A stretch of DNA of 64,000 nt, taken from contig JANWWT010000001.1 in NCBI GenBank assembly GCA_025055675.1, forward strand, positions 62,001 to 126,000, given 5' to 3'. Made by a program: the position numbers and the translations under genes. This document shows positions 14,527 through 53,037 of this stretch, in pieces. The first letter of the stretch is position 1. Each line of letters starts with the position of its first letter. The stretch comes from Pseudanabaenaceae cyanobacterium SKYG29. GTDB taxonomy: Bacteria > Cyanobacteriota > Cyanobacteriia > Pseudanabaenales > Pseudanabaenaceae. The notes beneath the pieces were generated by a model, which did no database searches, was not told the origin of the DNA, and saw nothing but the letters and a program-made list of their open reading frames with translations.

Positions 14527-14598
14527 TGGGTCGTCTGGGGATCGAACCCAGGGCCAATCGGTTAAAAGCCGAGTGCTCTACCGCTGAGCTAACGACCC
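14527..14598 (-). tRNA. tRNA-Lys (UUU)
   Basis: The reverse complement folds as a tRNA. The acceptor arms are GGGTCGT/ACGACCC with discriminator A, the D arm is GCTC...GAGC, the anticodon loop CTTTTAA gives anticodon UUU, and the T arm CTGGG TTCGATC CCCAG is complete. CCA is not encoded. It stands alone between the Uma2 remnant and the tolC-like gene. Confidence 0.95.
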
Positions 14599-21210: not shown

Positions 21211-26075
<4,865 letters not shown>

Positions 26076-31120: not shown

Positions 31121-31216
31121 CAGGCTCGGAGCTATGCGGTTTCAACGCCCGAACCGTGTCAGGGTCGGAAGGCAGCAGCACTAAGGGATGCTTGGGACAG
31201 GCGTAGTTTCCGGGTC
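31121..31216 (+). ncRNA. ffs: Signal recognition particle RNA (4.5S-type, bacterial small SRP RNA)
   Basis: The conserved Ffh-binding stem-loop is present as GTCAGG-GTCGGAAGGCAGCAGC. The flanks GGCTCGGAGCTATGC and GCGTAGTTTCCGGGTC pair to close one long hairpin, the usual small SRP RNA. Ends are estimated from the pairing. It sits between the phasin-like gene and thrC. Confidence 0.92.
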
Positions 31217-31240
31217 AATACCTAAGTAAAGTGCTAACCT

Positions 31241-47535: not shown

Positions 47536-47565
47536 TTGACGACAGGGAAAAAGAGTAGCTATACT
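47536..47565 (+). promoter_or_regulatory. Sigma70-type promoter of the speY-like gene
   Basis: TTGACG (47536-47541) and TATACT (47560-47565) are separated by 18 bases, one of the best promoter matches in the window. Transcription from about 47572 would produce a leader of about 280 bases before the coding region. Confidence 0.65.
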
Positions 47566-47571
47566 TTAGTT

Positions 47572-47854
47572 GTCATTTGTGCCAGGGTTGCTCAAGTTGA
47601 AATATAGGTTTCTACTGTTTGACCTCGATTGGCAGCTTTCCCTCAAGCTGGAAGAACGGCGCAAGAGAAAGCCGGGTCTCTCCTGGGACGAATCCTGTGA
47701 AGGACCCAGTATGAGCCGATCGGTTCGTTAAAGGGAGGGTTACTTAGTCCCCTGAGCCGATCGTAGACAACAGAATTTTACAACTGAATAACTTCAACAC
47801 CACTGGAGTGGATATTTCCGTTTGTTCATTTTTGTATAAAAGGGAGGAATTGCC
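47572..47854 (+). promoter_or_regulatory. Long structured 5' leader, candidate regulatory RNA
   Basis: Several hairpins can form in order: CAGCTT/AAGCTG (47633-47650), CGGC/GCCG (47657-47674), GGGTC/GACCC (47674-47707) with an inner GGA-CGAA-TCC loop, and a 10-bp stem CGATCGGTTC/GAGCCGATCG (47717-47726 with 47754-47763). CCACT/AGTGG (47800-47811) follows, leading into a T-rich stretch before the ribosome-binding site GGGAGG. The 11-base sequence TGAGCCGATCG occurs twice (47712 and 47753) and permits alternative pairing. I could not match it to a riboswitch class I know. Confidence 0.5.
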
Positions 47855-48904
47855 ATGCAAAAATCTGATCTGCTGCGGGAGACCGTACAACACATTGACA
47901 TCAAACAGTTCGATGTTGTCGGTCTAGTGGAAGCCATGTCTCGCACTGCCTTTCAAGCGCGCAATCTCGGTAAGGCTGCCCATATCTACGACGAGATGCT
48001 GCGCGACCAGGACTGTGCCATCATTTTGTGCCTTGCGGGGTCGCTTTTTAGCGCAGGGTTGAAGAAGGTCGTGTATGACATGATCACCCACAACATGGTG
48101 GACATTATTGTCTCCACGGGGGCAAACATTGTCGACCAGGACTTCTTTGAAGCCCTTGGCTCTAAACACTATGTGGGGGATATTTTCGCCGATGATGAGG
48201 TGTTGCGTCAACTCCATATCGATCGTATTTATGACACCTATATCGATGAGGATGAACTGCGGGTCTGCGATATGACGATCGCGGAAATTGCTGCTACCCT
48301 GCCCCCCCGTCCCCACTCGTCGCGGGAATTCATCCATGCCATGGGTGCTTACCTCGATCAACACGCCCGTAACCGTGAATCCGTGGTTTTGGCTGCCTAT
48401 CACCACGATGTGCCCATCTTTGTCCCTGCCTTTAGCGATTGCTCCGCTGGGTTTGGGCTGGTGCATCATCAGTGGTATAGCCCTGAGTCCCACCTAACGA
48501 TCGATTCCGTACGGGATTTCCGCGAGCTGACCCAGTGTAAGTTGGCTTCTCCCCATACGGGGCTGTTTATGATTGGCGGCGGTGTGCCCAAGAATTTTGC
48601 CCAAGATACGGTGGTGGCAGCGGAACTTCTAGGCTTTGACACCGCTATGCACAAGTACGCTATCCAAATTACAGTGGCGGATGAACGGGATGGGGGGCTA
48701 TCAGGTTCCACACTGCGGGAAGCCCATTCCTGGGGCAAGGTGGATATTGTGAGGGAGCAAATGGTTTTCTCCGAAGCGACTCTAGCAATGCCTTTGGTAG
48801 TAGGGTATGCCTACGGCAAACGCAACTGGGTAAATCGTCCTGCCCGTCGTCTGGCGCAAATTTTCCGCTCTTCTATTCCCTCACTGCACCTGACTACGGC
48901 ATAA
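47855..48904 (+). CDS. speY: Deoxyhypusine synthase-family protein (SpeY-like)
   Basis: This 349-residue NAD-fold protein is homologous to eukaryotic/archaeal deoxyhypusine synthase. It keeps the lysine that forms the enzyme-butylimine intermediate in SGSTLREAHSWGK. Bacteria lack eIF5A, so such proteins make other polyamines. Some are named SpeY, for 1,9-bis(guanidino)-5-aza-nonane synthase acting on agmatine, and others act as homospermidine synthase. The product here is not known. GGGAGG precedes the ATG by 8 bases. It has a long structured leader with its own promoter and is followed by argC. Confidence 0.87.
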   Translation: MQKSDLLRETVQHIDIKQFDVVGLVEAMSRTAFQARNLGKAAHIYDEMLRDQDCAIILCLAGSLFSAGLKKVVYDMITHNMVDIIVSTGANIVDQDFFEALGSKHYVGDIFADDEVLRQLHIDRIYDTYIDEDELRVCDMTIAEIAATLPPRPHSSREFIHAMGAYLDQHARNRESVVLAAYHHDVPIFVPAFSDCSAGFGLVHHQWYSPESHLTIDSVRDFRELTQCKLASPHTGLFMIGGGVPKNFAQDTVVAAELLGFDTAMHKYAIQITVADERDGGLSGSTLREAHSWGKVDIVREQMVFSEATLAMPLVVGYAYGKRNWVNRPARRLAQIFRSSIPSLHLTTA

Positions 48905-48960: not shown

Positions 48961-49992
48961 ATGGTGAGAGTCGGGATTATCGGGGCTTCAGGGTATGGGG
49001 GTGTACAACTCGTGCGCCTGCTCCTGGAGCATCCAGAGGTGGAAATTACCTACCTAGGGGGTAGTGCCAGTGCGGGGCAGTCTTTTGCCGATATCTATCC
49101 CCACCTGGGCTGGTCTTTACCGATCGAAGATTTGCCTGCACCCCAGATAGCCGATCGGTGTGATGTGGTGTTTCTCTCTTTGCCCAATGGTTTGGCTTGT
49201 CAGCTAGCCCCCCAGTTGTTAGAGTGTGGTTGCAAAGTGCTAGACCTGTCGGCGGACTATCGCTTTCGTGACCTCAGTATCTATACCCAGTGGTATCAGG
49301 GGACAAGGTCAGACCAGGAGTTAGCCCAGGAGGCAGTCTATGGGCTACCTGAACTCTACCGCGGGGAAATTGCCAAGGCCAGGTTAGTAGGTTGTCCTGG
49401 CTGCTATCCCACGGCTAGTCTCCTTGCTCTTTTGCCCCTCCTCAGTCAAGGGTTGATTGACCTGGCATCGATCATAATCGACGCGAAATCGGGGACATCG
49501 GGGGCGGGTAGGCAGGCAAAAACCCATCTATTACTGGCGGAAGCACAGGGTTCCTTGGCAGCCTACGGGGTGACAAATCATCGCCATACGCCAGAGATTG
49601 AACAGATTTGCAGTGCTGTGGCGGGGCAGGCAGTTAGGGTGCAGTTCACTCCCCATTTGATCCCGATGGTACGGGGTATTTTGGCGACGGTGTATGCCCA
49701 ACTGCGGGACCCAGGTTTGGTCAAGGACGACCTGCTGACTATCTACAAGTCCTTTTACCGCCATGCTCCCTGGGTGCGAGTGATCAACGGCTATCCCCAG
49801 ACCAAATGGGCAGCGGGAACTAACTGGTGTTTCCTGGGCATGGAGGTTGATCAGCGCACGGGGAGAGTGATTGTGCTCTCAGCAATTGACAACCTGATGA
49901 AGGGTCAAGCGGGGCAAGGGGTGCAGTGCTTCAACTTGATGCTGGGCTTTGCCGAGACTTTGGGGTTGCCCCAACACGCTTTTTATCCCTAG
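48961..49992 (+). CDS. argC: N-acetyl-gamma-glutamyl-phosphate reductase
   Basis: This 343-residue NADPH-dependent enzyme catalyses the third step of arginine synthesis. [14 protein letters not shown] binds the cofactor, Cys148 in [10 protein letters not shown] is the catalytic cysteine, and the C-terminal domain ends in the typical [12 protein letters not shown]. It lies 56 bases after the speY-like gene. Arginine gives agmatine, a polyamine precursor, so the pair makes metabolic sense. It abuts the convergent HEAT gene with no gap. Confidence 0.96.
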
Positions 49993-51183: not shown

Positions 51184-53037
51184 ATGACCATCCACCGCAG
51201 GCAGTTCCTGATTGGGGTGGGCGCTAGTTATCTCCTCAGCCAAGCTCCAGTCACTGCTTCTCCCGCCAAGCGAGCAGTTCTTATCGGGATAAATCAATTT
51301 GGTATTCTGGGCGCAGTCACCGATGTCGCTCTGCAACGGCAACTTCTGTGCTATCGCTTCGGTTTTTCCCCTACTGACATCTTTAGCCTTACTGACCGTC
51401 AGGCTACTCGCTCCGCCATTGAGGCTACGATCAGTCAACACCTCTGGCAATCTACTCTCCCTGGCGATATAGCAGTGATCTGCTTTAGTGGTTGCGGTAC
51501 CCTCATTGGCGATGAACCAGCCCTGTGGACGGCAGATGGACAGATCATCCCCTATTCCACCCTGATGCTGTGGCTGCAGGCAATTAATACCGATCGGCTA
51601 TTGTGTATCATCGATGCAGGTTATCGCTATCCAGGGACAACGATTGTGGGAAACTTGCGGTTGCGCAGTCGACCCTGGACTGGTCCCGATCGCCTTAGCC
51701 CTGGAGAACTGAGTTACCAAGAGGAATTGCGTACCAAAGTACCGGCAAAAAAGCAAATGGGGGTTTTATTACAAGCCGCCGACCCCAGCCAACTCTGTGC
51801 CGAAGCTACCTGGGAAGGATTTAGTAGTGGGGTTTTTACCTACGTGCTCACGCAAAATCTGTGGCAGGCTCTCCCCACCCAAAGCATTGACAGCATCTTA
51901 GAGCAAGTAGCAGACACATTACAGCAGTGGCACCTGGAAATACCTAACCCCATAGGTAAGGGTCTGGTCTGGCAAGAGTTACTGGGGGGAGAACCAGGGG
52001 ATGGGGTGATTACCAACGCCGAGGGGAAGGGAGGGGAAATGTGGTTAGGGGGACTACCGCTGTGTTCCCTAGCCTATTCTGCCCCTGGTTCTTTAGTGAA
52101 GACAGCTAGCCAGTTATTGCAAATTAAGAGCCGCAACGGTCTGACCGCCAAAGTGGAAGTGGTAAGGGGAGCATCGCCCCTGGCAGTGGGGACGCTGGTG
52201 CAGGAGGAAGTACGCCATATCCCCCGCAATGTTGGTTTGGCAGTGGCGATGGACAGTGAACTGTCCCGCATTGAACGCGTTGATGCCACCAGTGCCCTTT
52301 CTTCTATACCCCGCACGATCGGAGTCACGGCTGGGGAGCAATACGCCGACTGTGTCTTTGGCAAAGAAGAGGGGCGTTACGGTCTATTTAATCTGGGGCG
52401 ATTCCCCATAGTTGACTCCTTTGGGGCAGCGGGGGAATCAGTTACGGCAGCCCTCAAGCGACTCCGTCCCTGTTTCGAAAGTCTGCTAGCGGTAAAATTG
52501 CTCCACCTTACCCTCACCCCTAATTCCTCCTACCTTAGCTTTCGGGCAAGGGTAAACCCCCAACCTGCTATTAGTTTTACTCCAGACAAGCAAATTGTGG
52601 GACATACGCTTGCGATCGGTGATCAGCTCACCTGTCACGTCCAAAGTTTGACGGATGTACCCCTGTACTTACGTCTGTTTTGTATAGACAGTCGCTACCG
52701 GCTGATGAGTCCCTCCTTCGTTATTCCTCCCTACGCTAGCAATAACGTCATACCACCCCAACAAACAATTACTATCCCCCCGCCCACGGCACCGATCACA
52801 TGGGCAGTTTCCTCTCCCCAGGGCTATTTTGAGATTCTACTAGTGGTTAGCCGTAAGCCCTTCAGCAATGGCATAGAACAGGGAGGACAATCCACCAACG
52901 GCATGGTGATATACAGCAATCCTCTAGGGGTGGTACTCTCTCTGCTACAAGACCTCCACCAAGGAGAAAGTGAAGACCAGTGGGTGCTACCCCTGCAAAG
53001 ATGGGCAACGATCGGTTTTAGTTACCGCATTGTCTAA
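51184..53037 (+). CDS. Exported caspase-fold protein lacking the catalytic His-Cys pair, with DUF4384 domain
   Basis: This 617-residue protein opens with a Tat-type signal (HRRQFLIGVG), then a peptidase C14/caspase p20-like fold (KRAVLIGINQF, GDIAVICFSGCG, LLCIIDAGYR). Active members have FSGHG and DxC. Here the His position is Cys104 and the Cys position is Gly146, so it should not be a protease. A DUF4384-type beta domain (LTCHVQSLTDVPLYLRLF) occupies about residues 470-590. It is probably a binding or regulatory protein outside the cytoplasm. Confidence 0.85.
   Translation: MTIHRRQFLIGVGASYLLSQAPVTASPAKRAVLIGINQFGILGAVTDVALQRQLLCYRFGFSPTDIFSLTDRQATRSAIEATISQHLWQSTLPGDIAVICFSGCGTLIGDEPALWTADGQIIPYSTLMLWLQAINTDRLLCIIDAGYRYPGTTIVGNLRLRSRPWTGPDRLSPGELSYQEELRTKVPAKKQMGVLLQAADPSQLCAEATWEGFSSGVFTYVLTQNLWQALPTQSIDSILEQVADTLQQWHLEIPNPIGKGLVWQELLGGEPGDGVITNAEGKGGEMWLGGLPLCSLAYSAPGSLVKTASQLLQIKSRNGLTAKVEVVRGASPLAVGTLVQEEVRHIPRNVGLAVAMDSELSRIERVDATSALSSIPRTIGVTAGEQYADCVFGKEEGRYGLFNLGRFPIVDSFGAAGESVTAALKRLRPCFESLLAVKLLHLTLTPNSSYLSFRARVNPQPAISFTPDKQIVGHTLAIGDQLTCHVQSLTDVPLYLRLFCIDSRYRLMSPSFVIPPYASNNVIPPQQTITIPPPTAPITWAVSSPQGYFEILLVVSRKPFSNGIEQGGQSTNGMVIYSNPLGVVLSLLQDLHQGESEDQWVLPLQRWATIGFSYRIV

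Follow-up and report, generated by a model that had tools for sequence, protein, structure and literature searches.

What occupies the roughly 280 bases that separate a predicted promoter from a polyamine gene in the Pseudanabaenaceae cyanobacterium SKYG29, and do they control that gene as a riboswitch? The stretch of 64,000 nucleotides analysed here (the window) carries a deoxyhypusine-synthase-family (DHS-family) gene at 47855..48904 on the + strand (PF01916, E 5e-98; NF002699, 583.8 bits against an NCBIfam cut-off of 500 bits), preceded by the Shine-Dalgarno sequence GGGAGG (47842..47847, +). Its upstream neighbour is fmt and its downstream neighbour is argC (48961-49992, +), bearing out the assignment in an earlier note on this DNA of a deoxyhypusine-synthase-like polyamine gene before argC. 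The promoter named in that note was also recovered: a pattern scan predicted a sigma-70-type promoter at 47536..47565 (+) with a -35 TTGACG, an 18-nt spacer and a -10 TATACT (10/12 matches; two such sites in the region versus 0.8 in shuffles), and relatives have comparable, similarly placed -10-like boxes. The transcript is predicted to start at about 47572. The window genome encodes a SpeA-type arginine decarboxylase and an agmatine deiminase, and no member of the arginase/agmatinase family (PF00491 ureohydrolase) was found in it; a route from caldomycin to homospermidine is not evident in this genome despite the first two enzymes.

The leader had been described as untranslated and highly folded, with two mutually exclusive folds possible, and was proposed to be an undescribed riboswitch. 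The 11-base direct repeat behind these folds, TGAGCCGATCG, is present at 47712-47722 and 47753-47763, as is the 10-bp stem (47717-47726/47754-47763). The repeat is a consequence of the palindrome CGATCG, its two copies already differ in the sister genome (L002), and the fold pair is not conserved. The leader was about as stable as shuffled sequences (z = -1.43; 15/200 shuffles as stable), and the supposed late hairpin with a T-rich tail (47800-47830) is a short stem in which a terminator scan found nothing. What exceeds chance in the leader is an upstream open reading frame (uORF) together with a hairpin of two helices (P1/P2), both visible only by comparison with relatives.

When relatives were searched with the leader, matches turned up in 26 of 58 genomes. 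Almost all of these matches stood 5' of a homologue of the window's DHS-family gene, and they clustered in one block corresponding to the reading frame of the uORF. In the window, the uORF (47597..47731, +) has 44 codons with a TTG start and a TAA stop, and it takes up 135 of the ~280 bases, about half of what had been read as untranslated. The encoded peptide is MKYRFLLFDLDWQLSLKLEERRKRKPGLSWDESCEGPSMSRSVR, with a conserved core GLSWDESCEGPS at 47675..47710 (+); the core consensus is DPxLSWxDxCE[GA]PS or, in its longer form, RRxxDPxLSWxDxCE[GA]PS. Among 85 unique uORFs, the core residues L, P, C, E and P were invariant and S, W and D near-invariant. The invariant residues were encoded by many codons (five for Leu, four for Pro), and six codons were used at a near-invariant Arg position. 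The dN/dS value in the uORF frame was 0.050 for pairs up to 15% different and 0.074 for pairs up to 30% different; in the two shifted frames it was 2.2-3.3. The start slot held TTG, GTG or ATG in nearly all loci, TTG being the most frequent. The many codons that spell the invariant residues, the low dN/dS in one frame and the kept start slot show that the uORF is coding and under strong selection at the amino-acid level. The last Ser of the core was AGT in 84 of the 85 unique uORFs, which reveals an extra, nucleotide-level constraint where the coding and RNA signals meet. Comparison of the peptide with Pfam, NCBIfam and PDB gave at most weak, unrelated matches, none near the cut-off. Shortly 5' of the TTG, at 47584-47591 in the window and in many lineages, lies a box AAGGTTGC/AGGGTTGC that is not an obvious Shine-Dalgarno sequence.

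A uORF profile (A1) matched 138 of 390 cyanobacterial genomes with E-values down to 1e-27, and 137 of these matches were convincing; the remaining one (E 0.0084) was spurious. The uORF occurred in 65 of the 160 cyanobacterial genera sampled, with one copy per genome and rarely two. Matches to a broader profile (A5) in a phylum sample were confined to genomes of the same class. A uORF-like match in a proteobacterial MAG (L162) lay within a longer unrelated ORF, had no DHS homologue nearby and was attributed to chance. No uORF was found in viral contigs, and a contig scan with a narrow pattern gave no enterobacterial match.

The uORF is closely tied to the DHS family. The DHS-family gene was present in 186 of the 390 genomes, and our own comparison of the uORF and DHS listings placed it in 134 of the 137 uORF genomes (odds ratio 173; Fisher's exact p 2.5e-56); the remaining three are draft assemblies split into several hundred contigs. 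Where the flank was long enough, the DHS-family gene almost always lay directly 3' of the uORF on the same strand, 62 to ~600 nt from its stop and rarely (one degenerate case) ~1 kb. Two subfamilies are served in this way, the caldomycin-synthase type of the window and a ~30%-identical homospermidine type (SpeY, NF001980). Two genomes (G076 and G175) carry both types with a uORF of its own before each (loci L074/L075 and L082/L083), which favours action in cis. The uORF was absent from 52 cyanobacterial genomes with a DHS-family gene, and in 20 of these inspected over ~2.5 kb of upstream sequence (one excepted) neither uORF nor hairpin was found. Two further loci stand apart. In L039 (G311), uORF and hairpin are present, and no DHS-family match was found genome-wide, possibly through gene loss or an assembly artefact; the place expected for the gene holds a hairpin with a T-run behind it. 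L106 (G200) has a degenerate copy with the peptide end CEPPC, an unrecognisable P1/P2 and the gene ~1 kb away; it is possibly a decaying leader.

The second conserved component, P1/P2, overlaps the end of the uORF. Its model (R1) matched the window at 47708..47763 (+; cmsearch 30.8 bits, E 3.8e-5) in a 0.5-Mb search of the loci, and stricter whole-genome filters missed this copy. The 10-bp stem of the earlier note is the outer helix P1, with the 5' arm CGATCGGTTC (47717..47726, +), which lies inside the uORF in the window, and the 3' arm GAGCCGATCG (47754..47763, +). The consensus of the element was AGUAU(G)nnC [UGAUCGACC] UGUAACUnnA [GGUUYGC] variable loop [GCRAACU] S [GGUCGAUCA], with a conserved UGUAACU internal loop. 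In most lineages the UGA stop of the uORF forms the first three bases of P1, and in the window's family the stop is usually shifted a few codons into the hairpin. Pairing was kept in 99.0% of cells. Double changes were found in 11 of 16 pairs in an alignment of 64 sequences (six of nine pairs in P1) and in 7 of 16 pairs in 13 sequences; since the 64 rows had been fitted to the model, the 13-row MAFFT alignment gives the more independent of the two results. The covariation score was 0.417 versus 0.233 in shuffles, none of 500 of which scored as high, and was far above that of slid versions. The alignment of homologous leaders that the earlier note had suggested as a check on its fold thus did reveal covariation, at P1/P2. 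Genome-wide, R1 matched 93 of 390 genomes once each, all of them uORF genomes, and always adjoining the uORF. An alternative helix, CCNAGU/ACUSGG, considered as an anti-P1 fold, was rejected, as it gave 499 pairs versus 499.2 in shuffles and no covariation.

Covarying helices, a conserved internal loop and a polyamine gene downstream would suit a true riboswitch, with P1/P2 and its UGUAACU loop as the receptor for a polyamine or guanidino compound and the uORF as a mere passenger; guanidine (ykkC) and other riboswitches likewise lie in leaders of genes of guanidino or polyamine metabolism. Unlike in those classes, the main conserved part of this leader is protein-coding, and Rfam, another check suggested, gave no relevant match to a known class at gathering and permissive thresholds in the window or at the gathering threshold in ten relatives. 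The peptide is under purifying selection and was kept in at least three lineages that lack P1/P2 (L074/L082/L166; L090; L095-type), and no P1/P2 without a uORF was found in the search of 390 genomes, indicating that the peptide is the more constant component. The riboswitch reading fits poorly, since the uORF is the most conserved part, the conserved RNA is only a small two-helix hairpin and the peptide persists without it; we consider it quite improbable. The leader of the earlier note is real and regulatory, and most likely an on-off control not described before, but it is chiefly a leader-peptide gene with a hairpin and not an untranslated riboswitch.

We propose that the leader is probably a cis-acting leader-peptide control element in which ribosome pausing at CE[GA]PS sets the expression of the DHS-family gene. 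Conservation of the uORF peptide is greatest in its C-terminal part, as it is in arrest peptides, the codon distance from the core to P-S is constant and the position of the stop varies, which together suggest that the ribosome pauses on CE[GA]PS or immediately after it. Transcription from the promoter at 47536-47565 would yield a transcript with the uORF (47597-47731) as its first ORF and the 44-residue conserved peptide as its product. With the conserved C-terminal RRxxDPxLSWxDxCE[GA]PS in the exit tunnel, the ribosome would pause at this putative site (at or just after P-S) to an extent that depends on the cell's polyamine state. The paused ribosome would cover the P1 5' arm and decide whether P1/P2 forms, and P1/P2 formation would set the expression of the downstream enzyme. 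The effector would be a polyamine or a precursor, and homospermidine is the product that both enzyme types can share. The pausing, the effector and, above all for the lineage of the window, the direction of control are inferred. TnaC and Erm-type leader peptides act in cis by nascent-chain-dependent pausing, the mechanism of our model, but they differ in peptide, effector and downstream gene.

For the output step, a possible route was seen in the genus g24, in which the codons CCTAGTCC(C) could pair over 8-10 bases with GGACTAGGAG(G) in the Shine-Dalgarno region of the enzyme gene. This complementarity of the P-S-P codons to the Shine-Dalgarno region was present in 7/7 genomes examined, so that a paused ribosome would free the Shine-Dalgarno sequence (pause = ON). 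In the window leader, the best anti-Shine-Dalgarno helix was no better than those of shuffles, and RNAfold with the pause site masked did not clearly free the Shine-Dalgarno region. Terminator-like structures after P1 were found in 19 of 79 loci versus 14.3 +/- 2.9 in shuffles; they were visible in some lineages, and none was found in the window.

This lack of enrichment of terminators after P1 bears on a classical amino-acid attenuator, in which a pause at Arg (or Trp/Cys) codons would report charged tRNA. Such an attenuator would suit the two to four Arg/Lys codons in the core and the role of arginine as the source of agmatine and precursor of the pathway in a genome with a SpeA-type arginine decarboxylase. 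The peptide has no run of a single amino acid, however, Arg and Lys interchange at most positions and the invariant residues are L, P, C, E and P, and we consider an attenuator very improbable.

The variable spacing between uORF and gene is relevant to two other explanations. In lineages with long leaders, no conservation was seen over the 300-500 nt that separate hairpin and gene, and a conserved box of its own lies upstream of the enzyme gene. Together with the strong amino-acid conservation along the core, this would be expected if the uORF encoded a small trans-acting protein, with the DHS-family enzyme or translation as possible targets, the hairpin as part of the uORF's own 3' end and the enzyme gene self-promoted. 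Such a protein would not account for a separate uORF before each of two DHS paralogues in one genome, for leaders as short as 62-77 nt, which leave little room for a second promoter, for the start of the hairpin at or within the uORF stop, or for the complementarity of the g24 uORF end to the Shine-Dalgarno region; the mostly TTG start would also be unusual for a protein needed in abundance. We regard this explanation as unlikely. Leader ORFs can raise downstream translation, and the uORF might simply keep the leader open or supply re-initiating ribosomes without sensing anything. This general ability and the short leaders of some lineages are consistent with such translation coupling, but it leaves unexplained both the specific residues kept over 65 genera and the distances of several hundred nucleotides, making it the least probable of the explanations considered.

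A leader-peptide control element in cis, which we favour, has precedent in the polyamine-related uORFs mdtU and speFL of E. coli, both of which involve Rho (PMC7815308). SpeFL of speF in E. coli and relatives (Ben-Zvi 2019 and Herrero del Valle 2020, as cited in PMC7815308) resembles the present case in being a short uORF before a polyamine-synthesis gene with a conserved C-terminus and a proposed pause near its end that alters downstream RNA. The SpeFL peptide appears to be unlike that of the window uORF in sequence, and the gene downstream in the window is a DHS-family homospermidine/caldomycin synthase. MdtU, a 34-codon uORF whose stop lies 106 nt before mdtJI, likewise has a polyamine-related gene downstream and C-terminal conservation, and its end is predicted to pair with the ribosome-binding site (PMC7815308), a pairing that the complementarity in g24 suggests as well. 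In that case an exporter is controlled, with involvement of Rho, and the passages of PMC7815308 cited here mention no covarying hairpin where the uORF stops. In contrast to the Rho-involving control of speF in E. coli, the window genome has no rho that reaches the NCBIfam cut-off, which makes the Rho route of mdtU/speFL (PMC7815308) unlikely here and likewise tells against a TnaC-type output by Rho-dependent termination.

We tentatively suggest, as a possibility somewhat short of an even chance, that the element represents a new class in cyanobacteria in which the growing peptide responds within the ribosome to a polyamine (homospermidine, caldomycin or a precursor) and, without Rho, switches two polyamine synthases through a hairpin at the stop codon. 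The leader element itself is old and widespread (65 of 160 genera) and has no entry in the RNA and protein family libraries that were searched. No earlier description of it was found in Rfam, Pfam, NCBIfam or the open-access papers searched, and priority is not certain. The linked polyamine pathway is reported to be essential for normal diazotrophic growth of Anabaena (as worded in a title cited by PMC10981699). If the suggestion is true, a polyamine-sensing nascent peptide operates in a lineage in which no rho was found, and the enteric mechanisms cannot apply as they stand. It would also provide a natural system in which one leader controls two enzymes with a common end product and different substrates, and what the ribosome senses would become a directly testable question.

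Several minor features were observed in these leaders and in the window. An A/T-rich motif, AA[CT]TGAATA or AATTAAATA, lies ~20-45 nt after P1 (47780-47788 in the window), is kept over distant lineages and often stands behind a small TTCTC/GAGAA hairpin and a T-run. In five Pseudanabaena leaders (L005, L013, L014, L019 and L049), TTTTGCTTGT occurs ~167 nt before and ~260 nt after the uORF Cys codon, and the pair possibly represents two related promoters or regulator sites. Elsewhere in the window, an Rfam scan identified a bacterial small SRP RNA gene (31123-31219, +) and two tRNA genes (14527-14598, -, and 23526-23596, -). An ORF at 51184-53037 (+) encodes 617 residues with a Tat-like signal and, by eye, appears caspase-fold-like (metacaspase-like).
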